Source of the DNA: a virus
Length of the DNA stretch: 64,000 nucleotides
Virus record (IMG/VR): IMGVR_UViG_3300020473_001965
Coordinates: 62,001 to 126,000 of that record
Reading direction: 5' to 3' (one strand)
Position 1 is the stretch's first letter; each line of letters opens with the position of its first letter. Shown in pieces: positions 6,601-62,746 of this stretch. Below the pieces are notes generated by a model. The model did not search any database. It saw nothing but the letters and a program-made list of their open reading frames with translations, and was not told the DNA's origin. A program made the translations under genes and the position numbers.

Positions 6601-6765
6601 AAAGTAAACAGCCCACTCAGCGATAAAAGACGCGTGGCCATTCGCTGAGCCGGTAAATGGACTCCCTGAAACAGAAGAACCCAAGCCCGCTAAAGGCTTG
6701 GGTGACTCCGAAAGAATTGATTGTATTCTTTCTCGCAACGTTTTTTCATGATTACGTGACAACAT
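3616..6765 (-). CDS. Large putative virion protein with leader-like N-terminus and nuclease-like region
   Basis: The longest gene here, 1049 residues. The N-terminus LRERIQSILSE resembles the leader of the head-protein clusters and carries an LSE site. Around residues 142-156 it has VDVELTNVDIHVKLN. Near residues 818-837 is DAALVDYEGNQVAFISLK followed by QQWSGISSRSG, which looks like the D-x(n)-xxK arrangement of PD-(D/E)XK-type nucleases, though the middle acidic residue is replaced by Ser. A C-terminal beta-rich part ends in a short helix. A promoter-like motif lies 19 bases upstream. I infer an internal virion protein possibly delivered with the DNA; the nuclease call is tentative. Confidence 0.85.
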   Translation of the reverse strand: MLSRNHEKTLRERIQSILSESPKPLAGLGSSVSGSPFTGSANGHASFIAEWAVYFAAKSPGDLTEGEWEECKKDRRYSAAFERAESAVSTEGESGDTAANLLKLKNIVSAMKSLASEAIANFGEVELLPGTGSEPKPGNDEVDVELTNVDIHVKLNDDHRVGGLGRGKLAKGQYLSGYISTDIYYRAIERFVEKHILNEETADKKYRDKIVDVQTSGGKTKTFITTSPEASSNITLGTTTLTFKTDSSGQPVLGKKGVPEFEVPVFELSREMSNLGVDITDQRFINLWERSKIGGPHVHVPDPHPKNPARTGYGVEFRSGVSPKDLGQGSSYLRVTPKGAPHLLETGKTSVVYTHYMESGFGNMKTPGKDPQAQEAQQAYFQMFRDNHDEFMKLLDEMGYVDAIVTDATRKLFGVELGAEENDRKTAYIKFTVPWSKAARADANSVSQLVSIESVVYPGIPEMKVVELPLRNDVNPSVYYSLQGTEALEGKEIAYVKFRHFDGNRPPQVFLGKDSKDLTREIDIFSSDGAATAFAAADVKRQLSQEPAHPSTTHFSTTPSARDEVIQKFMRDSNIVVQKGVDLPPVSRNEILRWVNSNWQTYKEYVPEDEVEDEREGKTWLWAMIAQNLQDVGLTLTESAKLLLKTIIKEITTRKKKMLSETRASGRGGIAKRPKYLKKFAEMLQNPELKVRLIKDGGEVLLDMTPAQRTKASSLCEKMSDLEDPVASDEYKELVKIFQDSGTPLSRISKSIVTGKDSDSGTEKEDIQIDQINAAIQKAISDESNDDDYDPTKGISLYLGRDKTVRGVVSCVSIPKTPKADAALVDYEGNQVAFISLKYASKGSEQQQWSGISSRSGLDTHPEIQSFIQDLIDYTAEGRLTTAVYREINDDSLKARAIYGPALSDSESSPESCDLCIATKGVIQLSKESNQAQVDMFSGIQPVYSFSLKGSGQIKVKGDVPEDDEFRPVLAARYGKDRGKSQGLTHIRAGIFTIGWALGRTAVELQQANDRVTIDLDRQMSLDFQGSNDPDRRDESVVREMIQDLLKNS

Positions 6766-10473: not shown

Positions 10474-10956
10474 CTAAGCAATCTCAATTTTTCTTGTTTT
10501 CGGTTCCGAGTTGTCAGGTACTACCTTTGGAATCTCCAAGGATAGAATACCGCTTTCAAATCCTGCGGAAATCTTCTTACTATCTAGATTGTCGTTTAGA
10601 GTAAAACTACGTCTAAATGAAGACCTCTTGATCTCTCTCTTTACATATTGAGAATCTGTGACACCTTCATTCTGATTGCTTGTTCCTACAATTGACAACA
10701 CCCCGTCTGTTACTTCAACGTTAATATCTTCTTTAGATAGGCCTGGAATTGCAGCTTCAATTAAAATATGGTCTTCGTGATTTATCACATTTACTTTAGG
10801 GTAGCTCCCCTTGGAAAAGAACTCATCCCCAAACTCCCGATGAAATGCCGGGAACATGTCTGTTAACATATCGTCAAATAGACGATCAAATGGAGTTAAA
10901 AACTCCCTCTTGGTCAGAGAACGTGGATTAACACGTCTACGAATAATTGCACTCAT
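10474..10956 (-). CDS. Small heat-shock protein, Hsp20/alpha-crystallin family
   Basis: A 160-residue ATP-independent holdase chaperone. The alpha-crystallin domain spans roughly residues 45-145, with YPKVNVINHEDHILIEAAIP, LSKEDINVEVTDGVLSIVG and the closing GILSLEIPKV that corresponds to the consensus G-x-L-x-(I/L/V)-x-(I/L/V)-P. The N-terminus (FDRLFDDMLTDMFP) is the usual oligomerisation arm. AGGAG precedes the ATG. With the GroEL and FKBP genes it makes a phage-encoded folding set. Confidence 0.95.
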   Translation of the reverse strand: MSAIIRRRVNPRSLTKREFLTPFDRLFDDMLTDMFPAFHREFGDEFFSKGSYPKVNVINHEDHILIEAAIPGLSKEDINVEVTDGVLSIVGTSNQNEGVTDSQYVKREIKRSSFRRSFTLNDNLDSKKISAGFESGILSLEIPKVVPDNSEPKTRKIEIA

Positions 10957-11071: not shown

Positions 11072-11695
11072 TTAACTTTTTTGATATGGTGCGTTCAATA
11101 AGCTGTCTACAACATCCTGAAGGTGTACTTTGATCGCATCGTAAACAAGTGAGCGTGCTTCATCATGAAAGCTTGCCTCACCAGGCCCGCCTAAATCTTC
11201 AGCTGCAACCTGAAGGACCGGTATCATCGCATCGCGAAGTGCTGCCTTATTCTCTTCACCAAACAGCGGGGCAATTGCATCAGAGAGTGCTTGAGTGTGC
11301 TGCGCTCGCAAGACGCTGAGACCTCCTTCGGGCACAGCCATGTGGCTTATCTCTTCCTTAATAATCTGTCTAAGCTGTCGTCTTGTAATTTTGATTGTTG
11401 ACTCTGTGTATCTTTCAATCCTTTTTCCTGACGGTATGGACTCTGGTTCCATATCAGCCAGCGAGTCTAAACTATAAGGAATGTTTGCTCTGCTTCCTGG
11501 ACCTCCGGTAATCATGTCTAATATGTCGTCAAGCTCATCTTGATTATAGGCAATTTCAGATTGAGCCCTACCGTTTAAATCATATCCCACCACAATGGGA
11601 AATTCAGCATCAGCAATGTTCTTCCCAAGATTATGCCTTGGATGTGCCATTTCTTCTTCAATAATCTTTCTAAGCCGGGATTTTGTAATTTTCAT
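11072..11695 (-). CDS. Leader-family protein with two leader copies
   Basis: A 207-residue protein with two copies of the leader: MKITKSRLRKIIEEEM at the start and IKITRRQLRQIIKEEI near residue 100. The second copy begins with Ile (ATC) where others have Met, as if a former start codon decayed after gene fusion. No other domain is recognised; the C-terminal part is helical. I infer a head-packaged or scaffold-associated protein. It is the last gene of the array that begins near 18982. Confidence 0.8.
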   Translation of the reverse strand: MKITKSRLRKIIEEEMAHPRHNLGKNIADAEFPIVVGYDLNGRAQSEIAYNQDELDDILDMITGGPGSRANIPYSLDSLADMEPESIPSGKRIERYTESTIKITRRQLRQIIKEEISHMAVPEGGLSVLRAQHTQALSDAIAPLFGEENKAALRDAMIPVLQVAAEDLGGPGEASFHDEARSLVYDAIKVHLQDVVDSLLNAPYQKS

Positions 11696-11839
11696 TTTAT
11701 TTTCTCGCGGTGGTCTTTACTCATATCTAAAATCTCATGAATCATTATCGATCGTTTAATCATTGTCTCTAAAATTATTTGAACAACCCTTACTTTCAGC
11801 ATCTTCTGCATAGAAATATATATTACCGAGCCCTGAATT

Positions 11840-12550
11840 ATGCAGCACATCAAAGACCTTAATGTAGAAAGAATAAGAGTTATTACAGTTGCGAAGGTCG
11901 CTAGTTCCGCATTCTCTCACTCTCTCAGTGACAAATATAAGACTAGTCATGGACACTCACTAGCGCTTCTTAAAAAGTGTCTAGAAGAAGAAGAAAACAC
12001 TCTTGTCATCTCAGGCATTAGAAATCCTCTTGCGAGAAATCTATCATACTTTTTCCAAACGTATTCAGACGTCGGGCGCAATGATGTAAAATGCAAGTCA
12101 AATAAATACAAGGGTGAAAAGTGCTATGTTATGGAAAAAGATAAAATATTAAGTTTAAGCACAGAAGAGGTCGTCCAAAAATTCTTTGATCAAAAATGGC
12201 ACAACACTTTTAATGATTGGTTTGAAGAGTTTTTTGAAATCACAGATATCGATGTAGTCTCATTTGATAAAGAATCTGGGTATCAGCTCTACTCACTAGA
12301 CAATAACAACTGGATTCTATTCTATACTTTTGAAATGTTTTCAAAGAACAAGTCAAAATTTGAGAGATTCTTTGATATTAAAAGACTCGCGCACACAAAC
12401 AATGCAGACAAGAGAATTTATGGCGAAGTATATAGAAGCGTAAAAGCATCAATTAAATTCCCTAAGTCATACAAACAAAAGTTACTCAACACAGAAATTA
12501 TCAATCGATTCTACAGTAAAAGTGATATTCAGAAGTTCTGGGCCATGTGA
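11840..12550 (+). CDS. Sulfotransferase-like protein
   Basis: A 236-residue plus-strand protein. RVITVAKVASSAFSHSL fits the PAPS 5'-phosphosulfate loop of sulfotransferases, and LVISGIRNPLARNLSYFFQT fits the 3'-phosphate motif (R-x-P-x-x-R-x-x-S). The later part (WHNTFNDWFEEFFEI) is like capsular-polysaccharide-type sulfotransferases. It may sulfate a surface glycan, but the acceptor is unknown. An in-frame stop six bases upstream limits the start to this ATG or later, and no ribosome site is obvious. It is AT-rich and inverted relative to its neighbours, like an inserted moron. Confidence 0.75.
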   Translation: MQHIKDLNVERIRVITVAKVASSAFSHSLSDKYKTSHGHSLALLKKCLEEEENTLVISGIRNPLARNLSYFFQTYSDVGRNDVKCKSNKYKGEKCYVMEKDKILSLSTEEVVQKFFDQKWHNTFNDWFEEFFEITDIDVVSFDKESGYQLYSLDNNNWILFYTFEMFSKNKSKFERFFDIKRLAHTNNADKRIYGEVYRSVKASIKFPKSYKQKLLNTEIINRFYSKSDIQKFWAM

Positions 12551-12753
12551 TGAAATTTAAAATTTCTGATCACGCTCTAGCAGTTCCTGACATGCAAGTA
12601 GGTGATCTTGTCAAGATAGGTCGCATCGGCAAAGAATACGGCTTGATCCTCAGCATTCATGACTCGAAAAGCATTATTCAAGTATACTGGCCAGAAAGCA
12701 ATGAAATAGGCTGGGAGAAATGCGTTAGAATGATTGTTGTATCTAGAGCCTAA
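12550..12753 (+). CDS. Small SH3/KOW-like 'GDLV' protein (plus strand)
   Basis: A 67-residue member with QVGDLVKIGRIGKEYGLILS and IIQVYWPESNEIGWEK. Its ATG overlaps the sulfotransferase stop (TGATG), so the pair is translationally coupled and has moved together to the plus strand. A small AGCCT/AGGCT hairpin spans its stop and that of the convergent gene. Function unknown. Confidence 0.8.
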   Translation: MKFKISDHALAVPDMQVGDLVKIGRIGKEYGLILSIHDSKSIIQVYWPESNEIGWEKCVRMIVVSRA

Positions 12754-14744
12754 ACAGGCTTAAGATCAGCCAGTTCTTTGATTGCTTCAAGAATCACATC
12801 TCGAACGAGGCCTTTTCTCATAACACCCTCGACTTGTGTCTCGCCAGAGGCTTCTACAGCCGTTGACTGCAATTCTTTTACAGCAGATTTCAGGTCTTTT
12901 ATTCTATCATTTATCTGGTCTATCTTGTCTGGGTCTTCTTCTGCATCGATTTGACTGAGCAGGTCTTGTATCTCTTTGTTTGCTGATGCTACATTGTCTG
13001 TTACTACAGCTTCAATGTCCACGGGTGTTTCGTTGATTACATTTGTTAGCAAAGCTGCGAGATCGCTCTTTCTTATCTTAATGTTTTCTCTTACGTCGTT
13101 TGCGACAGGACGACCAAGACTCGGAGAATAAGCACTCAAGGCGTAATCAGAAGCAGTCACTCCTGCGCGCCAGGCATCCCATGGGCCACCGTAATCATCA
13201 CTTGACATGTCAGCAGGCATCTTATCAACAACTTCATAATTCAAAGCTTTTGCAAGGTCCCTACTCCACTGTCCGAACCCAGAGGCTTCAATGTCTGCCA
13301 TTTGGGCGTCAACGTCGTAAGAGCCTTCTTTTAGGTTTTTTGTAAGTTCGGCGACACGTGTCTTTACCGCTGAAAGAAAACCTGACGACGAGCCACCTAT
13401 TTCATCGCTGGGAATCGGTGTTAAGCCAGAGCCTATGTCAGGCCCCCACATTTCGCCAGAAACCCAAGGACTGCCCGTCCACTTAAACTGATACGGCTTC
13501 GACGCTCCTGGGAGCGTTACTATGAACCCGATGTATTTGCCTTCTTCGTACGGGTTGTAAGAAGTCATCTTTCTTTTGTAGCCGCTCTGAGTCACCTTTA
13601 TTCCTGAAAGTGCTTCTCGCACTTCAGTCACCTGATCGTCTGTTACGGACATTAAGCTTGCAGCCGGACCTGACCATTCGAGGCCTCGACCAGAAATACC
13701 CCAACCCTTAGATTGCCAACCGCCCTGGTTGAGAATTTCTTTGGCTTCTCGGGGTGCTGAAGCTCTACTCTGCCTTGCGATGGTTTTGGCGCCATGATAT
13801 CTTTGTGCTCTTCGTCTGTCTGGGTGTAGATTGTCATCCCAGTCTCCTGACATCGCTTCACGAATCATCTGGAGCAATTCACCCTTAGAGACAGTCCGGA
13901 CTGCACCTTCTGTTGTTTTGCTCTTAGATTGAAATGGTCCGCGGAGATCTGTATTAATATCGCGCCATAGATCAACATCATCGTCAAGCCCCTCCCGATG
14001 GCGGACATACCACTCGGAGTCGGGATCTGAATACGGCTCTAACTCTTCAGGTGTAGATCTTCGCCACTTCGGATTGTCTGCAAGCCACATGACAAAGTCG
14101 GCTTCAAAAACATCTTCACCATAGATTTCTCCAGTAAGCGAATCCACGATATCTCTCATCCCATGTTTTTGAGACAAGCGTTCTGCAGACGCTTCTAGGT
14201 CTGTAACTTTCTGGGTCCATGACTCGTAAACACGCTTTACTTGATCGTCATATCCCCAAACAAGCCTGTTATATTCTGGCCCTCGGGTGAGAATCTTTCC
14301 TTCAAACCCGGGTCGTCCATTCTTAATATCGTCTTCTTTAAATTCAACTTCTACGCGGTGGCGTGTGCCGGAGTTGTCGACAAAGAGGATTTCGTCGCCC
14401 ACTTTATAGCTTACGTCTTGGTGCCCGTATCTGGTGAGCGCGCTCTCTCTGATGTGATTCTGTTGCGCCTGCCTTATAAGATTGCCTGCCAGGCCTTGTG
14501 CAAATTCGTGGGCTGACGCGAGCGGCTTAGCGTGGTAGTGTGGTGCGCCGTAGCCGCTGCTTTTATTGTCCGCTACGATCGCTGATGCATCTTCTTTTGT
14601 GTAAAGCCCTGCTACTCCGCTAGGGGTGCTAGGGTCAGGGTCTCCAAAGACAGGGCTACCGTCATTTCTAGAATCTCGCATGCGAGGCCACAGACTCTGC
14701 TGGCCTCGTCCAAAGTTTGCAATAACTACATAAAGGTCGTCCAT
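12750..14744 (-). CDS. Large multi-leader virion-type protein
   Basis: A 664-residue protein in the leader array. It lacks a leader at residue 1 but has leader-like stretches inside: VSKGELLQMIREAMSG near 285, IKIRKSDLAALLTNVINE near 553 and MRKGLVRDVILEAIKEL near 641. The N-terminal ~100 residues (DDLYVVIANFGRGQQSLW...) look like a separate globular domain, and one beta segment (KVGDEILFVD) resembles the GDLV fold. This suggests a polyprotein of packaged domains cut at INE-type sites. No enzyme motif recognised. Confidence 0.8.
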   Translation of the reverse strand: MDDLYVVIANFGRGQQSLWPRMRDSRNDGSPVFGDPDPSTPSGVAGLYTKEDASAIVADNKSSGYGAPHYHAKPLASAHEFAQGLAGNLIRQAQQNHIRESALTRYGHQDVSYKVGDEILFVDNSGTRHRVEVEFKEDDIKNGRPGFEGKILTRGPEYNRLVWGYDDQVKRVYESWTQKVTDLEASAERLSQKHGMRDIVDSLTGEIYGEDVFEADFVMWLADNPKWRRSTPEELEPYSDPDSEWYVRHREGLDDDVDLWRDINTDLRGPFQSKSKTTEGAVRTVSKGELLQMIREAMSGDWDDNLHPDRRRAQRYHGAKTIARQSRASAPREAKEILNQGGWQSKGWGISGRGLEWSGPAASLMSVTDDQVTEVREALSGIKVTQSGYKRKMTSYNPYEEGKYIGFIVTLPGASKPYQFKWTGSPWVSGEMWGPDIGSGLTPIPSDEIGGSSSGFLSAVKTRVAELTKNLKEGSYDVDAQMADIEASGFGQWSRDLAKALNYEVVDKMPADMSSDDYGGPWDAWRAGVTASDYALSAYSPSLGRPVANDVRENIKIRKSDLAALLTNVINETPVDIEAVVTDNVASANKEIQDLLSQIDAEEDPDKIDQINDRIKDLKSAVKELQSTAVEASGETQVEGVMRKGLVRDVILEAIKELADLKPV

Positions 14745-14754
14745 GTCTTACTCC

Positions 14755-15540
14755 CTAATTTGAAAATGGTACGTAGAGGTTTGTGTTTAACTTGTAGCCT
14801 CCGGCTTCCACATCTGCTTTAGCTTCTGCGTACGAAACAGATCGTGTAGCATCTTCAGCACCTCCAGCGCTTTCTGGAATGTAGACGGCTGCGTGTCGAG
14901 CGCCGCTCTTTGGAATGACAATTATTACACCGTTATTTTGATTGTATTGCATGGGCCCGATGTTTCCGTCACGTTCCTGCTTAAGCAGCCACTCAAGATC
15001 GCTCTCTCTTCCCGGAATTGGTATACCAGAAACTGTTACAAATCCGCGCGGGATTCGAAACTCATTGAGAAGTTGAATCTCTTCTTTAATAATCTGTTGT
15101 AGTTTTGCTTTGGTTATCTTCATGGTGTTCTCCATTGGACCGGCAGGAGGTGCTGCAGTTGGTGGAACTTGAATCGTTGCGCCGCTCATGTCAGAATGAG
15201 CTGTTTGGAAGCTTACGAACTGCGGGTGCTGCTTAAACATTCCCTTGATCACGTCCTTGATCAGCTGGCCCTGTTGCATCATCTCATCTTGAGTGTATCC
15301 CAGGCTTGATAACCACTCTAACAATTGAGGCTCACTTCTGCTTTTCTTCATAGCATTAAAGACAATGTAAAGCCCCATGTCGACTTGGCTTGACCATTCA
15401 AGCTCTGCAGCCCCGTATCGAGGTGCTGATTTTCCAGGTACCGGTGATAGTTCGTTGTGTATTTGATGAACCCGTTCAGATAGCACGCGGCTCAACTCTT
15501 CTTTAATAATCTGTCTTAATTTGTTTTTTGTGATTTTCAT
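14755..15540 (-). CDS. Leader-family protein with two leader-domain units
   Basis: The start is ATG 15540 (MKITKNKLRQIIKEEL), with AAGGA upstream; the longer frame runs through the neighbouring gene. The first leader ends in SRVLSE; the second unit, beginning MKITKAKLQQIIKEEI and ending in LLNE, starts at about residue 140. The second Met still has a GGAG at good spacing, so independent internal initiation or a past gene fusion is likely. The second unit carries a small beta domain (RGFVTVSGIP). No enzymatic motif seen. Confidence 0.82.
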   Translation of the reverse strand: MKITKNKLRQIIKEELSRVLSERVHQIHNELSPVPGKSAPRYGAAELEWSSQVDMGLYIVFNAMKKSRSEPQLLEWLSSLGYTQDEMMQQGQLIKDVIKGMFKQHPQFVSFQTAHSDMSGATIQVPPTAAPPAGPMENTMKITKAKLQQIIKEEIQLLNEFRIPRGFVTVSGIPIPGRESDLEWLLKQERDGNIGPMQYNQNNGVIIVIPKSGARHAAVYIPESAGGAEDATRSVSYAEAKADVEAGGYKLNTNLYVPFSN

Positions 15541-15556
15541 TTTGCTTCCTTTGACC

Positions 15557-16627
15557 TTAATCATACATTGGGGGTGTGTGTCTGACTGGTGCCCGCTTCT
15601 TGCGTGGCTTGGCACCATAAGCATAAAGCACATCTTCAATTTGTTTTAGAGTAAATCCTGCACGTTGTGCTTGATCGGCTGTAATATTACCATAGTCGGT
15701 GCCGCCGTCCTTGTATTCAATATTAATGTTACTTGGCTCGCCACCCTTGCGACGGACCTGATACGTTATCTTCTTGATATCATCCTTAGCTATGTAATCC
15801 ATTGTCAGTGAATTGCCGATAACTTCTCTTTCTCCTGGGTTTGGGTCCGCTTGATGCGCTGCATCCATGTCGGCACCACGCTGGTTCATCCAGGCAGACT
15901 CAAGATCTCTCATGAACTTACGTACTTTGTCAAGATCCCAGTTATCTGGAACGACAGCATCTTGAGAAAAAGACCCGTCGTTCCGACCTACCTTGTTTAC
16001 CCATCCGTTCATTGCGTCAAGGTCTAAGTCAAGATTCTCGTAGTTAACCATTTCATCAGCAAGCGCACCTTGAATGTCATTCGTAAGTGCATAGTTTGCA
16101 ACCCTGTTCATGGTATCCAGATCTTCATAAGGGTTTACCATAATTGGAAGCATTTTGCGCTCGCTGAGTATGGCTTCGCGTATAATTCTTCTAAGCTGTG
16201 ACTTCTTGATTCTCATCTTTCCCTCTGTGGCTGGAGGTAAATCATAGTCTGGTAGACCATGATCACCTGATTCTTGCCACTCACCTTTTCCATTCCAAAA
16301 TCCTGATGGATCTGCATCGGCAGGTGGTGGTCGTTCATGCCAGCCTTCTTGTTTAATGAGTGCTAATAGTTCGCTGTCATGCATCCACTCAGTTTTAGCA
16401 CCAGGATTTGCTCCGAAAACAACAAGAACGTTTGCACCCGGAGGGACTGGATCACCAAGGTCTATTGCGGCACTCACTGTCTCAGGCGAAGCTATGTCAT
16501 TGATATATCGAACTTCTCCGTCACGCGTGAATGTAACATTCCGCCAAGCAAAATGATCTTCAACCCAAGTGGGCACAGATACCACCTCTTGAATTATTCG
16601 CCTGAGCTGTGACCTCTTGATTCTCAC
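15557..16627 (-). CDS. Leader-family protein with two leader-domain units, GTG start
   Basis: A 356-residue protein starting at GTG 16627 (reading RIKRSQLRRIIQEVV). After ~120 residues a second leader, MRIKKSQLRRIIREAILSE, begins with an ATG preceded by GAGG at normal spacing, so the second half can be made alone or is a fused gene. The second unit has a helical domain and ends in a basic tail (KPRKKRAPVRHTPP), a possible DNA-contact element. The GTG overlaps the stop of a 48-residue gene. Confidence 0.82.
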   Translation of the reverse strand: MRIKRSQLRRIIQEVVSVPTWVEDHFAWRNVTFTRDGEVRYINDIASPETVSAAIDLGDPVPPGANVLVVFGANPGAKTEWMHDSELLALIKQEGWHERPPPADADPSGFWNGKGEWQESGDHGLPDYDLPPATEGKMRIKKSQLRRIIREAILSERKMLPIMVNPYEDLDTMNRVANYALTNDIQGALADEMVNYENLDLDLDAMNGWVNKVGRNDGSFSQDAVVPDNWDLDKVRKFMRDLESAWMNQRGADMDAAHQADPNPGEREVIGNSLTMDYIAKDDIKKITYQVRRKGGEPSNINIEYKDGGTDYGNITADQAQRAGFTLKQIEDVLYAYGAKPRKKRAPVRHTPPMYD

Positions 16628-16770
16628 TGTGATAAACTCCCTATGAATCCCATTACCATTACTACAACAAATACTGTTAATGGTATCATTGCTGCTGCCA
16701 TCATACCTAAATCTTTTGGTGTGACTCCTCGATGATCCATCCAGTCTTTGAGTTTTTTTATTGGCTTCAT
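16624..16770 (-). CDS. Small membrane protein, 48 residues
   Basis: Reads MKPIKKLKDWMDHRG, then a hydrophobic segment rich in Met, Ala and Val (MMAAAMIPLTVFVVVMVMG) and a short tail. ATG 16770 overlaps the previous stop (ATGA) and its stop overlaps the next GTG, so it is embedded in the chain of coupled genes. No family recognised. Confidence 0.65.
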   Translation of the reverse strand: MKPIKKLKDWMDHRGVTPKDLGMMAAAMIPLTVFVVVMVMGFIGSLSQ

Positions 16771-16892
16771 TTCTTCTTGTCCTTGTTTTTCTTGACAGGG
16801 ACGGGCTGAAGCGCTGGCTGCAATCCCAGCAAAGCTGCTAGATCATCAATAAATTCGCTCACCTTGGCTCGAATGTCATCAAAGATTTTCAT
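16767..16892 (-). CDS. Small protein, 41 residues
   Basis: Reads MKIFDDIRAKVSEFIDDLAA, then LLGLQPALQPVPVKKNKDKKK: an amphipathic helix, a proline-rich turn and a lysine tail. It is coupled to the following membrane-protein gene by ATGA. The N-terminus faintly resembles the leader helix but lacks the II-EE core. Function unknown. Confidence 0.6.
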   Translation of the reverse strand: MKIFDDIRAKVSEFIDDLAALLGLQPALQPVPVKKNKDKKK

Positions 16893-16897
16893 TTTAT

Positions 16898-17296
16898 CTA
16901 GCCTGTTGTTGTTGCGTACACACTGTAAATGTCGTACTGATCTAAATCACCGATTTGCTGTATAAGCGCAGGGTTGCGGCCGCGCTCTATCGCGGATTGG
17001 ACGTTTCCTCTCACTCCTGGATCAGAAAGGTCAAGCAGTGTTACTGCCCTAAACATGTCTTCGGGTGTGATTGATGGTGCACCCTTTGGCACAAATTCCA
17101 ACCAAGCTCTGTCCCGAGGATGAATTCTTCTTCCATCGAATGTGGTAGTACCGCCTGTTCCAACCTTCCCGTGATAAGGGCCTGAGAGAGCGTCATCCAA
17201 ATAAGAATCGGATTCACTGAGGCCTTTTCTTTCACTCAGAAATCTTGAGACTTCCTCTTTTATAATCTGCTGAATTCTTGATTTAGCTATTTTCAT
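16898..17296 (-). CDS. Leader-family small virion-type protein
   Basis: A 132-residue protein beginning MKIAKSRIQQIIKEEVSRF, followed by LSE and a second LSE within ten residues, both T4-type prohead cleavage sites. The rest is a compact domain (GRRIHPRDRAWLEFVPKG, then helices) without recognised motifs. Its ATG overlaps the upstream stop. Confidence 0.82.
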   Translation of the reverse strand: MKIAKSRIQQIIKEEVSRFLSERKGLSESDSYLDDALSGPYHGKVGTGGTTTFDGRRIHPRDRAWLEFVPKGAPSITPEDMFRAVTLLDLSDPGVRGNVQSAIERGRNPALIQQIGDLDQYDIYSVYATTTG

Positions 17297-17580
17297 TTTA
17301 AGGCCTTGGCGTCGTCGAGCTGACCTCGCTCGACTGTTGCTGTTAGATCCTCAATGAATTCATATGCAGCCGCTCGGCGATCGCCGGGATCGCGTATCGA
17401 CATAAGAGCATTGATCACATCTTTCATAGCAGTACCCAAATCGTCTTCTTCGTACTCATACTCCTTGAGCATTTCTTGACGCTCAGCATTTGAGCCAAAC
17501 TCTTTCTTGCTGGTCTGCCTGTTAAGTTTTGCAGCTTCCTCAGCAACAATTCTTTTAAGTTGTTTCTTGGTAATTTTCAT
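17293..17580 (-). CDS. Leader-family small helical protein
   Basis: A 95-residue protein starting MKITKKQLKRIVAEEAAKLN. The body is acidic and helical (MKDVINALMSIRDPGDRRAA and YEFIEDLTATVE). No clear L-x-E site follows the leader. It overlaps the next gene as ATGA. Function unknown; presumed head-packaged by its leader and neighbours. Confidence 0.8.
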   Translation of the reverse strand: MKITKKQLKRIVAEEAAKLNRQTSKKEFGSNAERQEMLKEYEYEEDDLGTAMKDVINALMSIRDPGDRRAAAYEFIEDLTATVERGQLDDAKALK

Positions 17581-17589
17581 TTTTATCCT

Positions 17590-17832
17590 CTACAATCTAA
17601 TGTTTCTTAGTCTTCTGTCCCTGACTATTGCTGCAGGTAGTTCTCCTAGCTCGAGATCTCTCTTTACTTGTGTCAGCTGTTCGGGGAAGAGTCGACCCTT
17701 GTCGACTTCGAACTCTACTTGACGCAGGAGTTCTGCCTTTTGTCGCTCAATCTCAGCGTTTTCACTAAGAGCATTAAGCACTTGCAGCTCTTCTCTTACT
17801 ATTTGACGAAGCTTTTTCTCTGTTAGTTTCAC
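17590..17832 (-). CDS. Leader-family small helical protein, GTG start
   Basis: I take GTG 17832, which has GAGG six bases upstream, overlaps the preceding TAG and puts the leader (KLTEKKLRQIVREEL) at the N-terminus as in its paralogues. An LSE site follows at about residue 23. The remainder is a long charged helix pair (EIERQKAELLRQVEFEVDKG, then LTQVKRDLELGEL). Function unknown. Confidence 0.8.
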   Translation of the reverse strand: MKLTEKKLRQIVREELQVLNALSENAEIERQKAELLRQVEFEVDKGRLFPEQLTQVKRDLELGELPAAIVRDRRLRNIRL

Positions 17833-18083
17833 TATCTTCCTCGCTGCCAAGAATAGGCGAACCCATGCTTGCTAAAAAATGCGTTGAGCACCTCATCCAA
17901 CTCGGTTTCAAAGCCTACCGGAAGCAGACCGTGCTTGAGATCAGATTCAATGTTTACACTCAAGGTGTGCATTCCGCCGGCTGAGGGCCACATTCTAGCA
18001 GATGCTGTGCTGTTCGATTCGTTTAAAATCTTTTTCTGCTCTTCTTGGATGATTCTTCTGAGTTGTGACTTTTTGATTTTCAT
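17832..18083 (-). CDS. Leader-family small protein
   Basis: An 83-residue protein with MKIKKSQLRRIIQEEQKKI followed at once by LNE. The rest has a beta segment (GMHTLSVNIESDLKHG) and a helix (FETELDEVLNAFFSKHG). Very similar leaders at 18290 and 18845 suggest recent duplication. Function unknown. Confidence 0.8.
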   Translation of the reverse strand: MKIKKSQLRRIIQEEQKKILNESNSTASARMWPSAGGMHTLSVNIESDLKHGLLPVGFETELDEVLNAFFSKHGFAYSWQRGR

Positions 18084-18089
18084 GATATC

Positions 18090-18290
18090 CTACTTTGCTG
18101 TTTGCGCTTGAGACAGCATCGCTGCTAGACGGTCTAGCTTTTTTCCTATGTCTGTTTCTTCGCCTACATCGTCAACTAGGCTAAACAGTTCCTGTCTTAC
18201 CTTTTCTATTATTTCATTCTTTTTTGACTCTGCCAACCGATCCTTCTCTTCTTGGATGATTCTTCTGAGTTGTGACTTCTTGATTCTCAT
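18090..18290 (-). CDS. Leader-family small helical protein
   Basis: A 66-residue protein; start at ATG 18290 because GGAGAG lies just upstream and the ATG overlaps the preceding TGA. The leader MRIKKSQLRRIIQEEKDRL is followed by AES and two helices (IIEKVRQELFSLVDDV and LDRLAAMLSQAQTA). Function unknown. Confidence 0.8.
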   Translation of the reverse strand: MRIKKSQLRRIIQEEKDRLAESKKNEIIEKVRQELFSLVDDVGEETDIGKKLDRLAAMLSQAQTAK

Positions 18291-18571
18291 TTTCTCTCCC
18301 AAGCTCCTCTTGAAGCTAAGTTTACTAGGGCAGGGATCACTTTGCCCCTCACGTACTCAAGTGCGTCTTGATAAACGTCATCGCCGTACAAGCCCGTGTC
18401 AAAGTTCTTCTGATCACTCTTGACGGCGCCGTCTTCAATCATCACTTCAACAATCTCATCGACGAGCTGTGCTACGCTGTGGTAGTCGGGACCAGCTTCG
18501 ACGCGAGCTTCCTGAAGGTTGGCAGCTTCTTCTTTGATTATCTGTCTAAGTTGTTTCTTTGTAATTTTCAT
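18287..18571 (-). CDS. Leader-family small helical protein
   Basis: A 94-residue protein with MKITKKQLRQIIKEEAANL, then LQE and a helical acidic domain (YHSVAQLVDEIVEVMIEDG, then DALEYVRGKVIPALVNLAS). Helix content and size match its neighbours, suggesting one expanded family. Function unknown. Confidence 0.8.
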   Translation of the reverse strand: MKITKKQLRQIIKEEAANLQEARVEAGPDYHSVAQLVDEIVEVMIEDGAVKSDQKNFDTGLYGDDVYQDALEYVRGKVIPALVNLASRGAWERK

Positions 18572-18572
18572 T

Positions 18573-18845
18573 TTAAGCTCTCGGTACCGACTTTAAGAAA
18601 TTGTGCACTAACTTGAATGCCTTTTTTAATTCTAGAAATTTCTGAGGTGTCAGCTCACCCGCATCGCGTTGCCTCATTGCTAGCGCAGGAAGGACACTGC
18701 TAAGATCTACAGCTACATCGGACGGGTGTTTCTCGTGCGGCAAGTGGTCGTCCTCGATGTCGCCGGGGCGCGTGTACGCATCAGCAATCAATCTAGCCTG
18801 CTCTTCTTGGATGATTCTTCTAAGTTGTGACTTCTTGATCTTCAT
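18573..18845 (-). CDS. Leader-family small helical protein
   Basis: A 90-residue protein; ATG 18845 has AGGAAG upstream and puts the leader MKIKKSQLRRIIQEEQARL at the N-terminus. The body contains a His/Asp-rich loop (EDDHLPHEKHPSDV) and a C-terminal helix (FLELKKAFKLVHNFLKSV). Function unknown. Confidence 0.8.
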   Translation of the reverse strand: MKIKKSQLRRIIQEEQARLIADAYTRPGDIEDDHLPHEKHPSDVAVDLSSVLPALAMRQRDAGELTPQKFLELKKAFKLVHNFLKSVPRA

Positions 18846-18853
18846 TTTTCTTC

Positions 18854-18982
18854 CTAGCAACAACTACAAGAGTCGCAACTGCACGTGCAGCATTCGCAGC
18901 ACTTTGATTCTTTCTTGGGCGGACATGTTTCACCGCAATCTTCATCGTGGTGATTCGTGATCTTTTGATCTAAATTTCCCAT
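18854..18982 (-). CDS. Cysteine-rich miniprotein, metallothionein-like
   Basis: A 42-residue protein starting at ATG 18982 with GGAAGAG upstream. Eleven residues are Cys, packed at the end as CCECCTCSCDSCSCC, with two His and several acidic residues before them (NHHDEDCGETC). That density suggests metal-cluster binding as in metallothioneins; no family match is claimed. It is the first gene of the leader array, downstream of a candidate late promoter. It could bind zinc or copper, or be heavily disulfide-bonded in the virion; both are inference. Confidence 0.7.
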   Translation of the reverse strand: MGNLDQKITNHHDEDCGETCPPKKESKCCECCTCSCDSCSCC

Positions 18983-40969: not shown

Positions 40970-42744
<1,775 letters not shown>

Positions 42745-57648: not shown

Positions 57649-57927
57649 TTAAAACGGACTCTCATTTTCAAGTAGATCATATATCTTATCAGCTTCTGTG
57701 CTAGAAATTTTCTCAACTGTTTTGTTTTCTTTGTCGCGCTTAATTTCATTAAGAAAGTTCATAAAATAATTTTCTTCAGATGCTAAGGCAGTTGCACATG
57801 CAGAAAAGAAATCTTGCATAGTTAAGTCCTTTTTAAATAGTATACTCCGCATATCAGCATGCGTTTCTTTTTCTATATTAACATGGACACTTTTCTTGCT
57901 TGCTATTACTCTTTTTGTTTTAGACAT
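57649..57927 (-). CDS. Ribbon-helix-helix-like regulator
   Basis: A 92-residue protein with a basic start and KKSVHVNIEKETHADMRSIL, then KKDLTMQDFFSACATAL, the strand-helix-helix pattern of Arc/ParD-type DNA-binding proteins common in phages. The C-terminal part is charged (EIKRDKENKTVEKISS). It could regulate nearby late genes. Confidence 0.75.
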   Translation of the reverse strand: MSKTKRVIASKKSVHVNIEKETHADMRSILFKKDLTMQDFFSACATALASEENYFMNFLNEIKRDKENKTVEKISSTEADKIYDLLENESPF

Positions 57928-57931
57928 AGTC

Positions 57932-58549
57932 CTACGCTAGTTTTGATGCACCCGCTCCTACGGCAATTGGTGTTTCAAGATCATCATTCATAGTACCGCT
58001 AGGACGAGTAAGTGTATCAAGTTTTTCATCAACTTCATCGGCGGACGCTTTGTCATATCGATCTAGCATAAATTGTCGAGCTCTATTTTTAATTGTCGTC
58101 TCAACATTAATCAAGTTGTTAAAGTTATTAATTAACCGTGAGATTCTCTCAGCAAAAGCATCAGCGTTAAGGGGCTGCTGAACTTCTTCTCCTGGGTCAT
58201 CAACGGCTACTGAAGAGTTGTCCACAGTTAGGCGCACATCATAGCCTGCTTGCTTTAATTTCTCAATCATGTTTTTAATGTCATCATCGGAGGCTGCGTC
58301 CGGGTCTTCTTCAGGCGTCGGTTCAGCATCTTCAGCTTCTTCGCCTTCTTCTTCTTCAAAGAGGTAACCTAGTGCTGATCTAAGTGTTTTAGATTCATCA
58401 GCTCTTTCCATCGCTGAATCTGCTTCATACTGTAACAATAATGCATCAATCTGACGATCTATCGAATCTTGCTCTTCAGCAGCACCCTCAGAAATCAGTT
58501 TTAGCTCTTCTCTTATAATTCTTCTCAGTATTGCTGCTTCCTTTTTCAT
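57932..58549 (-). CDS. Leader-family acidic head-type protein
   Basis: A 205-residue protein; ATG 58549 places the leader KKEAAILRRIIREELKLISE (ending in an ISE site) at the N-terminus. An acidic linker and helical domain (NDIKNMIEKLKQAGYDVRL-like and NFNNLINVETTIKNRARQFM) follow. Presumed internal head protein. Overlap with the upstream gene's longer frame is not used. Confidence 0.8.
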   Translation of the reverse strand: MKKEAAILRRIIREELKLISEGAAEEQDSIDRQIDALLLQYEADSAMERADESKTLRSALGYLFEEEEGEEAEDAEPTPEEDPDAASDDDIKNMIEKLKQAGYDVRLTVDNSSVAVDDPGEEVQQPLNADAFAERISRLINNFNNLINVETTIKNRARQFMLDRYDKASADEVDEKLDTLTRPSGTMNDDLETPIAVGAGASKLA

Positions 58550-58550
58550 T

Positions 58551-58949
58551 TTAGCTATCCTGTATTCCAGCTCTTTGCTTGCCCAGTTCAGCACCCTTAC
58601 CTAACTTCTTGGCTTTTGAAGTGGTTACATTTTGCTCTACAAATGTAGTTAACATATCATCAAAAAACTGAATTAAGGCCGGGATTTCTGTTGAAGTTAT
58701 GTTCTGTGCGCCTCGAAGTGCCTTCATCATATAGTTTCCTGCTTCTGTTTTATTTGTAGGCATCTTTGCACCTTGCAACTTCGGCTGGTATTCTTTTCCG
58801 GCGGCACCTAGTTCAGCTTGGTCTCCTTCGGGGGCATCTTCTTGACCAGGTTGATTCTCAGATATAACTCTCTTGGACAGCTCATTGAGCTTCTTAATCT
58901 GCAATTGGTTTCTAACAATCTTTCTAAGTTTTGATTCTGTAATTTTCAT
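58551..58949 (-). CDS. Leader-family small helical protein
   Basis: A 132-residue protein with MKITESKLRKIVRNQLQIKK, then LNE and ISE sites close together, an acidic-polar linker and helices (LIQFFDDMLTTFVEQNVTTS). It directly follows the superoxide-dismutase-like gene. Function unknown. Confidence 0.82.
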   Translation of the reverse strand: MKITESKLRKIVRNQLQIKKLNELSKRVISENQPGQEDAPEGDQAELGAAGKEYQPKLQGAKMPTNKTEAGNYMMKALRGAQNITSTEIPALIQFFDDMLTTFVEQNVTTSKAKKLGKGAELGKQRAGIQDS

Positions 58950-58956
58950 TGTGTTC

Positions 58957-59640
58957 TCACTTAAGTGCTTTTGCGATCTTCTCAGCTCGCTTAAATCGGT
59001 CCTCGATGACTTGCCAGTTTAGTTCCTTCATCATCGCGTATACATAAGACTTTCTCTTTGAAAGATAGTCCCTGTAATATGAGTGCTCCCACACGTCGAC
59101 GACAATCACGGGATAGAATCCGACCGGAACATTAAGGCTGTGTAAGTCGATTACTGTGTTCATGTATCGTTGCGTGTATGTGTTGTAGCCTGTGACTACC
59201 CAACCATTTCTGGCAGACTTTGCACATGCTATAAAGTCTTCTTGCCATGCATCGAAAGATCCGAAGTCTCTCTCAAGACGCATAAAAGAGAGTGTGTCCA
59301 TAGAAACTTCGCTTTGGACATCGCTAATGTTGTTAAAGAAGAGCTCGTGTAGATAAGCAGCGTTCATGTTGTACGTTTCATCCACTTTCAAGCTTCGGAA
59401 GTAAGAATGATTTAAGCCCGCCTCATCTCGATTTGCGGCGTCGAGCTCAGCTGAGACTCTATTAAATGTTTTTACATAGTTCTCATACAAGCCCTCATGT
59501 GCGTGCTTGTTCTTTTGGGTTAAAAGCTCAGTGGGCAAATCAAATTGCTTCTTTTGCAACACGAGTGCTTCATTAACTTCTTCTTCTTCGATTCCCAAGG
59601 AATCTCTGATTATTTCTCTTACACCATCTTTAGTAATCAT
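58957..59640 (-). CDS. Fe/Mn superoxide-dismutase-like protein with head-type leader
   Basis: A 227-residue protein. The N-terminus MITKDGVREIIRDSLGI, followed by VNE, fits the leader family. The rest matches Fe/Mn-SOD: HAHEGLYENYVKTFN (first His ligand region, spacing one residue off), NMNAAYLHELFFNN (second His), ARNGWVVTGYN and VDVWEHSYYRDYLSKR with the D and H ligands. Activity is uncertain because of the changed first-His spacing. The leader implies packaging in the virion; it may be a structural SOD relative or a protective enzyme. Confidence 0.85.
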   Translation of the reverse strand: MITKDGVREIIRDSLGIEEEEVNEALVLQKKQFDLPTELLTQKNKHAHEGLYENYVKTFNRVSAELDAANRDEAGLNHSYFRSLKVDETYNMNAAYLHELFFNNISDVQSEVSMDTLSFMRLERDFGSFDAWQEDFIACAKSARNGWVVTGYNTYTQRYMNTVIDLHSLNVPVGFYPVIVVDVWEHSYYRDYLSKRKSYVYAMMKELNWQVIEDRFKRAEKIAKALK

Positions 59641-60011
59641 TAGTCCACCACATATTCTTTTTCTAAATCTTTCTTGCTAACTTCTAGAGATTCCACTTCG
59701 CCCGTATCCGGATTCACATACTCTAGATTGACTGAGTCGGGGCCGATATGACTAACTGTGTACTCATACCCGCGTGGCCCGCCATTGGGTAAATGTGTTA
59801 CTCGGGTATCGAGGCCAAGATTGTCCACCTTTACTCGAGGTTCTTGGTCTTTCGGCTTTTCATCTTTCTTTGTGTCACCCGGGTCTTCAACAGACTTGTC
59901 AGCCTTCATACCATCAGCCGGCTTTTCAGAAAGCTCCTTGATTACGTCACGAAGATGCTGATCATACTGATCACGCATCATTCGAATTATTTGTTTCTCT
60001 GTTAATCTCAC
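59640..60011 (-). CDS. Leader-family protein with C-terminal beta domain, GTG start
   Basis: GTG 60011 overlaps the upstream TGA, has AAGGA nearby and puts the leader VRLTEKQIIRMMRDQYDQHL at residue 1, followed by LSE. An acidic-basic linker leads to a small beta domain (RGYEYTVSHIGPDSVNLEYV). Coupled by start/stop overlap to the SOD-like gene. Function unknown. Confidence 0.8.
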   Translation of the reverse strand: MRLTEKQIIRMMRDQYDQHLRDVIKELSEKPADGMKADKSVEDPGDTKKDEKPKDQEPRVKVDNLGLDTRVTHLPNGGPRGYEYTVSHIGPDSVNLEYVNPDTGEVESLEVSKKDLEKEYVVD

Positions 60012-62746
60012 TTTCCTTCCCCTAAACCTGCTAGTGTCATCCATCTTTCGTCAACCTGAGACTGCTCATGAGCTCTTGACTCTGTTATTACATCTGTTGA
60101 CTCGGGCCCCTCTTTAACAAGGCCGTATGTGACGAGCACATCGACGATTTTGTCTCTAGTTGCCTTGTCCTGGAATGATTGTCGGCGTTTGTCACCAAAA
60201 GCATTGCTTACTGCCTTGTTTGCTGCTGCTCGAGAGACCTTTGACTTGTTTGATACAAACTGATTAAAGATTTTTTGAACCAGTCTTTGTGTAGCTGCTT
60301 TGTTCTTGGCGCCTAATTTTGGATATTCAAACGACCCGCCTTTTGAAGTCTTTGATTTTTTATCTTTCTTCAAGTAGATATCAGAAGTAACAGATTTGTC
60401 GACTGTAAAGTAAGGTTCTACCTCGACACCTTTTCTGCGGAGATCGGGTGAACCCATGTCTTTCACCATTTGATCGTATGTTCTGTCTTTAACTGGTTTG
60501 TTTCTACCTAAGTGGGTCACACCTTTTCGTCGATCATCTAGATCACTTGAGGATGGCGTTGTATCTTTTCCAGTAATGCCTTGATCTTGTGCCGCTTGGA
60601 ATCTTTCTTTTTCAGTTTCGTATCGCTTGAGTGTAATTCCTCCTCGAGTCCGGTGGGCGTGAACGCCGTCGTCGTCAAGACGAAGAATTGCTAGTCTTGG
60701 TTTATCATCACCTGGTTTTGGTGGTACGGGAGGTACGGGAGGGTCGTCTTTTCCGCCAGTTCGTTTGTCATTAAGCGTGAACTGGCCGTCTCCGACGGCA
60801 CCATCGAGCATCTCTTTGGTAATCGGCCCAAATTCTGGGTGCTTTACTTTTAATAGCGCGTTCACCCACTTGAGAAGTGTCGGATAGTCGTCAAAGTTTT
60901 TGAAAGACGCACCAAACGTTCCCTCATCTTCTGGGTAGTTTTTAGGTTCACCCTGCCTGTTCTTGAATATGAACTCACCTTCGTGAGCTTCTGAAAGCAG
61001 ATCGATTATGGCATCAGGCGTTGTTATTCCTAATTCTACTAATGCAGGCAGGTTGGGCACATACCCAGAAAGATCTAGATCTACTTCCTCTTCTTCACCG
61101 GTTTCTGGATCTTTGACTGTTATTGTCATACGATTGGCAAAAAGGTCTATCACGATTTGCTCGTCTTCACCAGGCGGTGGAAGTGGAGGATCGTCTTCTC
61201 CACCTTCTTTACCTACATCCTCAAATCCGTCAACCATGACCTTGAGGATGGACATGCGAGAGCCGCGGATCTTGCCCGAACCTTTTTTACCACCCTTGCC
61301 TTTCCATCGAAGGAATCCACTAGCAGCACCTGCAGCTAGAAACCCTAACCCGAAGCCTTTGAGCAAGGGGCCGGCCCACTTCATAAGGCCGTTCAACACA
61401 TCATTCCTGAACGTATCATCTTCAACTATTCTAGTCTGATCTGGCATTGACTGGGAAAGCGTCTGAGATACATTCTCTGAGAACTGACCTGGGTCTATTC
61501 CGAAAAGTTCTGATCCTGCTTTTCCCATACCAGATGTTGCGTCGCCCGCGCCGCCGACAAAAGCTGTTACAGGGTCTGCGTTTGATGAAATAAGGTTGTC
61601 CACAGCTGCTGGACCCTTAGAGTCCATCATCGATGCTTTGATCAACTTAAGCAACTGTGCATTCTTCCCGCCGCCGAAGACAGTTCCCATGGAGGGTCCG
61701 CCTGCTTTACCAAATGTGCCGTCTCCCGTTATTCTTCGAACAACACGGATGATACCTTCTTCAGGCTTGACTTCACCCAAACCTACTGATTTCGAAATTG
61801 TTTGGGTTACTGTTTTTCCTGGAACTGTAGTTGTAGTTACATCCTTCATTGACTGCATCAAATCTTGAGCAAAAGGTGTGTCAGCTGCCCACCCGAGTGT
61901 CATCATAGCTGCGCCCGTTCCGATAAGAACGAGAGGTAACTTATACCCATAAGCAGCTTCAAAGTTTGCGGCGACATCGCCCTCTTTCCGACCAATTGAC
62001 TTTTCTTCTTGGCCTTCAACCTCTTCGAAGAGTAGGTCAGCAAGTGACTCTTCTTTACTCTCCCTATAGTAGTACTGGTCGTTCATCGCAAAGTCTTGGA
62101 AGTAAATTACTACCCCTCGAAGAACAGCGATAATGGTGTTGGCCGTTTTTGTATCAAGCTGCTCGGCGTCATGAGCAGAAACTACATCATCATAGATTTT
62201 TTGAAACTTAGCTGCTTCAGTCTTGAAACCGGATTTGTTTGCCTTGTTAGGGAATTCTGCTTGAACAAGCTCATCATACAAGTCTGAAAGCGGTTTATAT
62301 TCTATTGCTTTTAGCCAAGATTCTGCTTCTCTCTTTGCATTATCTTTAAGTTCTTGTCGCTTCTTGATATCAAACGTCTCATTTCCCCCTAGAAGTGTTC
62401 CGGCTTTGTTTCCGAACATTCCAATGTCTTTGATCCCTTTGATTCGATCAACTGTCTTAGCAAAAAAGCCGCGGGTGTCTTCGCCGGCTTCTTCTTGCTT
62501 GGCTTTCAGCATTTTCTTCAATGCAGATTTTGACAAAGCTTTAAGTTCGGCCTCGTCTGCTTGTGGATCACGATCCATTATCTTTTTGATCAAAGTTTTC
62601 TTTCGAGTGAAACCCAGTAACTCATTCAGCTCATCGTCTGAAAGCCCATTATTTGATGCTAAGATTGCTATGTGCTCTTCTGTCAAGTTGGCAAAATCTT
62701 CGTCGTCGAGCTCAAAAAGCAAAGATTCTAAGTCGTGTTGATTCAT
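60008..62746 (-). CDS. Large putative internal virion protein
   Basis: A 912-residue protein. The N-terminal ~150 residues are charged helices (LTEEHIAILASNNGLSDDEL). Hydrophobic segments lie near 270-290 (LVLIGTGAAMMTLGWAA) and 455-480 (GFGLGFLAAGAASGFLRWKG), then Gly/Pro-rich linkers and a basic C-terminus. The end, MTLAGLGEGK, resembles the AGLGEG near the start of the 43844 gene. Membrane-active internal or ejection protein is a reasonable inference; no family recognised. Confidence 0.82.
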   Translation of the reverse strand: MNQHDLESLLFELDDEDFANLTEEHIAILASNNGLSDDELNELLGFTRKKTLIKKIMDRDPQADEAELKALSKSALKKMLKAKQEEAGEDTRGFFAKTVDRIKGIKDIGMFGNKAGTLLGGNETFDIKKRQELKDNAKREAESWLKAIEYKPLSDLYDELVQAEFPNKANKSGFKTEAAKFQKIYDDVVSAHDAEQLDTKTANTIIAVLRGVVIYFQDFAMNDQYYYRESKEESLADLLFEEVEGQEEKSIGRKEGDVAANFEAAYGYKLPLVLIGTGAAMMTLGWAADTPFAQDLMQSMKDVTTTTVPGKTVTQTISKSVGLGEVKPEEGIIRVVRRITGDGTFGKAGGPSMGTVFGGGKNAQLLKLIKASMMDSKGPAAVDNLISSNADPVTAFVGGAGDATSGMGKAGSELFGIDPGQFSENVSQTLSQSMPDQTRIVEDDTFRNDVLNGLMKWAGPLLKGFGLGFLAAGAASGFLRWKGKGGKKGSGKIRGSRMSILKVMVDGFEDVGKEGGEDDPPLPPPGEDEQIVIDLFANRMTITVKDPETGEEEEVDLDLSGYVPNLPALVELGITTPDAIIDLLSEAHEGEFIFKNRQGEPKNYPEDEGTFGASFKNFDDYPTLLKWVNALLKVKHPEFGPITKEMLDGAVGDGQFTLNDKRTGGKDDPPVPPVPPKPGDDKPRLAILRLDDDGVHAHRTRGGITLKRYETEKERFQAAQDQGITGKDTTPSSSDLDDRRKGVTHLGRNKPVKDRTYDQMVKDMGSPDLRRKGVEVEPYFTVDKSVTSDIYLKKDKKSKTSKGGSFEYPKLGAKNKAATQRLVQKIFNQFVSNKSKVSRAAANKAVSNAFGDKRRQSFQDKATRDKIVDVLVTYGLVKEGPESTDVITESRAHEQSQVDERWMTLAGLGEGK

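Follow-up and report, generated by a model that had tools for sequence, protein, structure and literature searches.

A Fe/Mn-type superoxide dismutase as probable cargo of the head in a group of T4-like phages

Internal proteins of bacteriophage T4 reach the head via N-terminal targeting leaders, and the T4 protease gp21 cleaves after the motif L/I-X-E (PMC9026906). Superoxide dismutases (SODs) and their relatives have been described in the virions of other viruses: the chlorovirus PBCV-1 encodes a Cu/Zn SOD (A245R), which is active and packaged in the virion (PMC7019647), and A45R of vaccinia is an SOD-like virion protein without SOD function (PMC9282662). Virion SODs are hence known for pox viruses and for viruses of algae; the isolate collection and the papers searched contained no phage head cargo of this type. 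The records of isolated phages in this collection include no close relative of the SOD described here, and no report of a phage SOD with capsid targeting was found in these papers.

The open reading frame (ORF) of interest is located at 58957..59640 (minus strand) of the window, a stretch of 64,000 nucleotides covering positions 62,001 to 126,000 of the IMG/VR virus record IMGVR_UViG_3300020473_001965 (235,672 bases, 235.7 kb). Coordinates refer to the window unless another locus is named. The ORF starts with ATG, encodes 227 amino acids, and is the sole SOD copy in the record. A preliminary description of this DNA had called the SOD fold recognisable, and database searches agree: the product contains the motifs DVWEH, NAAYLHELFF and GW, Pfam Sod_Fe_C matches at 3.1e-20, well over the cut-off (Sod_Fe_N, at 0.042, is below it), and the top match of a PDB sequence search is 1coj, the Fe-SOD of Aquifex pyrophilus (6.3e-33). 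Neither PHROGs nor NCBIfam assigned the ORF to a specific family, and an Rfam scan of the window from 54 to 64 kb gave no match. We consider it probable that this Fe/Mn-type SOD is a T4-style cargo of the phage head, probably active in this phage, and that the head role outlives catalysis in some lineages.

An AlphaFold2 model based on an alignment of 80 rows (pLDDT 94) superposes on 1coj with a Z score of 26.7 and an rmsd of 1.4 Å over 201 residues. The structural alignment starts with A25, the predicted mature N-terminus, on residue 2 of 1coj and spans residues 2–208 of the latter; in the model the two-domain SOD fold covers the whole mature chain (residues 25–227; 58960..59568, minus strand). 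All four metal ligands are predicted to be present, namely H48 (59497..59499), H98 (59347..59349), D182 (59095..59097) and H186 (59083..59085), all on the minus strand and placed by family alignment and by covariation of ligand loss. Y55 (59476..59478, minus strand) corresponds in the family alignment to the gate residue Tyr34 and is kept in 76 of 82 viral relatives. With the four ligands and the gate tyrosine in place, binding of Fe or Mn and removal of superoxide by the protein are most likely. H167 is shared with 1coj, which we take to suggest Fe or cambialistic metal use.

The SOD domain is preceded by a predicted capsid targeting sequence of 24 residues (residues 1–24; 59569..59640, minus strand), MITKDGVREIIRDSLGIEEEEVNE↓A, in which the arrow marks the predicted cut. 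The putative head-protease site V22-N23-E24↓A25 (59566..59577, minus strand) has Val at P3, where the T4 rule has Leu or Ile (PMC9026906). In the model, the leader forms a separate helix (residues 4–15), followed by a disordered or looser segment up to about residue 30. A Sec signal peptide was considered and rejected, as the leader sequence has no hydrophobic core. A leader profile was trained solely on the leader genes at 11–19 kb of the window, where about ten small ORFs in a row (11072-18863, minus strand) share an almost identical leader, M(K/R)I(T/K)KxQLRxIIxEE, at their start; the ORFs 11072-11695, 14755-15639 and 15557-16627 carry two leader units in tandem. This profile places the SOD ORF 5th in comparison with 113 other ORFs. 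Judged from the single sequence, the leader is suggestive only, and its signal is modest because 295 of 20,000 shuffled versions of this N-terminus score as high. Apart from these genes, a protein of 1049 residues (3616-6765, minus strand) starts with MLSRNHEKTLRERIQSILSE↓SPKP, which may be a further leader ending in a site of this type.

The strength of the evidence for the leader lies in the family comparison, where the pattern is far beyond chance. Among 81 relatives, all from viral contigs except L082 (a contig of a metagenome-assembled genome, which also holds gp23), the leader is 21–52 residues long and hardly alignable, and its end always directly precedes the SOD domain. The junction [LIV]xE↓[ASN] is found in 38 of 38 clusters (75% identity), which are kin and hence not a count of independent events, compared to 33 of 2484 other positions (1.3%). 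P3 is Leu, Ile or Val, P1 is Glu in all clusters, and P1' is Ala, Ser or Asn. Entropy amounts to 3.1–3.6 bits from position -20 to -4 and drops at -3, -1 and +1, and 106 of 107 relatives fit the wider pattern [LIVM]xE↓[ASGN] at the junction. The leader sequence thus drifts freely, near-random up to P4, while the cleavage site stays fixed. The leader and VNE site noted in the preliminary description are present here, and the junction is kept across the family. A drifting helix followed by [LIV]xE↓[ASN] provides a simple reading rule for finding head cargo in this phage group.

Candidate machinery for such processing is encoded in the same record: a gp21-type head protease (PF03420, E-value 4.7e-28) and a gp23-type capsid protein (PF07068 (Gp23), E-value 1.1e-65). 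The head ORFs follow the T4 order of large terminase, portal, protease, scaffold and capsid, where the terminase-like, portal-like and scaffold-like identities are read from position and sequence. In two sets of SOD-bearing related records the protease was detected in 18 of 21 and 9 of 16; records without it are all at most 134.7 kb in length, and every tested record of at least 137 kb has it. In the major capsid protein of 81 relatives, the motifs LLE and L[RK]E are kept around residues 49–60, approximately at the expected end of the propeptide. Head packaging of the SOD, as proposed in the preliminary description, is strongly supported by this comparison, in which a conserved junction coincides with a gp21-type protease and gp23 in the record. 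Near the head protease, an ORF at L121 10407-10880 (minus strand) has the leader-like start MAKVTKSMLKGIVKECLVEILSE↓GINAP. The 912-residue neighbour of the SOD (60008-62746, minus strand) ends in ERWMTLAGLGEGK, and a scaffold-like protein of the head region (L121 7317-8873, minus strand) ends in DRWATLAGLK; this common C-terminal tail may be a core-binding tag. Searching the DNA for a C-terminal tag with too strict a pattern gave no match.

We hypothesize a mechanism in which the 24-residue leader would dock the SOD in the prohead core, the gp21-type protease of the phage would cut after E24, as the conserved motif suggests, and the mature protein, starting where ordinary SODs start, would remain inside the finished head. 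It may remove superoxide close to the genome in the head or, should it be ejected together with the DNA, in the cell that has just been infected.

The SOD was also said to lie between leader-bearing genes. This is clear on the downstream side only, since the upstream neighbour (59640-60044) has a leader profile score of about 0. The downstream neighbour at 58551..58949 (minus strand; MKITESKLRKIVRNQLQIKKLNE↓L) scores 15.8, and a second one at 57932..58549 (minus strand; MKKEAAILRRIIREELKLISE↓G), read from an internal ATG of the ORF 57932-58594, scores 16.9; both outscore the SOD itself. Homologues of 57932-58594 occur in 46 of 81 related loci, nearly always directly downstream of the SOD, and those of 57649-57927 in 74 of 81; the SOD belongs to a conserved block of genes. 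Elsewhere in the window, GroEL-like and small heat-shock-like proteins (40970-42556 and 10474-10956, minus strand) can be read from the sequence. Relatives of the SOD are widespread among giant T4-like phages and are encoded in at least 168 viral stretches. Among contigs picked by their capsid protein and not by SOD, all six of at least 115 kb have the SOD, and smaller fragments are mostly without it, as expected of fragments. In a phylogenetic tree all viral SODs group in a single clade with a support of 100, set apart by a long stem; the cellular proteins in this tree were picked by similarity patterns, which makes any sister group of the viral clade provisional. The freshwater 'Bacteriophage sp.' MW462191 was discarded as a phage relative, as its surroundings look bacterial (branched-chain aminotransferase, class C beta-lactamase, LysR).

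Comparison of 107 sequences displays an intact metal site in 92 and a lost one in 15, a share that is not an estimate of frequency, as loci were ranked in the scan by how closely they resemble a member poor in ligands. The scan, which was keyed on a ligand-free stretch, brought up members in which the ligand set HHDH is replaced by QFSE, RRDG, NSSR, NTSR, QRDG or LREG; the family alignment adds further ligand-poor members with HHDT and HNDN. A quick tree computed without the ligand columns requires four changes for loss of the metal site, of which at least three are forced by starred branches; the site has thus been lost in three or more other lineages, probably in four. Each metal-less record examined holds one SOD copy, several of these records being fragments, and an explanation by paralogues was rejected on this ground. 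The cleavage site is kept in 15 of 15 metal-less members. Purifying selection on their lineages appears strong where measurable (dN/dS 0.02–0.08 in four pairs with usable dS, the remaining pairs being saturated). A model of the metal-less member L254 (NSSR; pLDDT 89.5) aligns to 1coj from residue 30, just after E29, with a Z score of 26.5, and on this model L254 retains the SOD fold. Since the ligands have been lost repeatedly, catalysis seems dispensable in some phages of the group, and since the lineages without a metal site still have the leader, the cleavage site and the fold and remain under purifying selection, a metal-independent use of the packaged fold is indicated. Metal-free members may serve a second, non-catalytic purpose, perhaps in the core or in the DNA interior. 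The preliminary description had left the choice between an enzyme and a structural derivative open; both seem to occur in the family, with complete ligands and a predicted enzyme in the window, and metal-less proteins with leader and fold in other lineages.

These losses in sole copies, with junction, selection and fold maintained, also speak for the rival that survives best, according to which the SOD is now chiefly a structural or internal head protein, and activity is incidental or fading where ligands survive. At the position adjoining the last ligand (the Glu of WEH), 30 of 82 viral relatives (L003, L004, L012 and others) have Gln and all 35 cellular proteins have Glu, and this points in the same direction. 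However, the four ligands are intact together in 92 of the 107 sequences and the gate tyrosine is mostly kept; over a very divergent clade, this requires that selection has kept acting on the metal site. The window protein itself keeps all ligands and E185, the dimer-bridging Glu adjoining the last of them. We regard a chiefly structural role as unlikely, although it deserves more weight than the other rivals. A broader proposal combines both aspects: the SOD may be an internal head protein present almost throughout a large clade of T4-like phages, which would have gained it once as an enzyme, fixed it as head cargo, and several times turned it into a metal-free pseudoenzyme that retains an essential role in the head or in delivery. 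We put this forward tentatively, at somewhat less than even chances.

Alternatively, the protein could be an ordinary cytoplasmic phage SOD of infection, with an N-terminal extension unrelated to the head. The SODs of the phages MIJ3/PA5oct and Vibrio phage 2.275.O, which sit in chaperone or translation-type gene clusters, would fit such a role. However, the protease junction is conserved while the leader drifts and is retained even after catalytic loss, a head protease is present, and the SOD adjoins other leader genes, which makes a purely cytoplasmic function improbable.

Loss of the first His ligand had been named beforehand as a finding that would speak against an enzyme. An ungapped alignment to 1coj sets A47 at the position of the first ligand, and H48 seems to be missing there because a one-residue deletion in the helix shifts the register; the H-x6-Y spacing is one residue below the usual. 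In the family alignment, residue 47 varies (Ala, Asn or Ser) and H48 is invariant; all 92 relatives that have the other three ligands (92 of 92) also have H48, and none of the eight that lack those three has it. The relative L209 has the usual H-x7-Y spacing and some cellular SODs also display H-x6-Y, and H48 is therefore the first ligand and the window copy a predicted metal-binding SOD. A catalytically dead window SOD, as the ungapped placement of A47 would have it, is thus the least probable of the readings, and loss of the first His is rejected on the basis of family alignment and ligand covariation.

Compared to known systems, probable head cargo of the present type resembles the T4 proteins IPI-IPIII and Alt in its N-terminal leader, its short motif of the L/I-X-E type, and the presence of a gp21-type protease and gp23 in the genome. 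Unlike in T4, the cargo has a metalloenzyme fold, packaging is deduced from the genes, and the leader of the viral SOD family is longer (21–52 residues versus 10–19 in T4 internal proteins (PMC9026906)). With cellular Fe/Mn-SODs, of which 1coj is the nearest solved structure, the protein shares the whole mature fold, the four ligands, the gate tyrosine, and a His (H167) at the second-shell Gln/His position; it differs in the predicted removable leader, the H-x6-Y helix deletion, its separate clade on a long stem, and the repeated loss of ligands. The SODs of the jumbo phages PA5oct/MIJ3 and of 2.275.O are phage Fe/Mn-SODs as well, with H-x7-Y and DxWEH, but display about 24–25% identity, chaperone or translation-type neighbours, and no comparable leader. 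The SOD of Pseudomonas phage MIJ3 (L210 2878-3423, plus strand) starts with MNDSIKKYISIAE↓AASS; this start likewise matches the site, perhaps by chance. PBCV-1 A245R is likewise a virus-encoded SOD, packaged in the virion there and presumably here, but has an unrelated Cu/Zn fold, a eukaryotic algal host and another packaging route. Vaccinia A45R parallels the metal-less phage members, but differs in its Cu/Zn-SOD fold and its location in the lateral bodies of a poxvirus. The phage family offers a natural experiment, in that phages comparable in other respects carry one presumably packaged fold, some of them with its metal site and some lacking it, by which it becomes testable whether heads carry an enzyme that guards the genome or the fresh host from superoxide, or an enzyme reused as a structural part.
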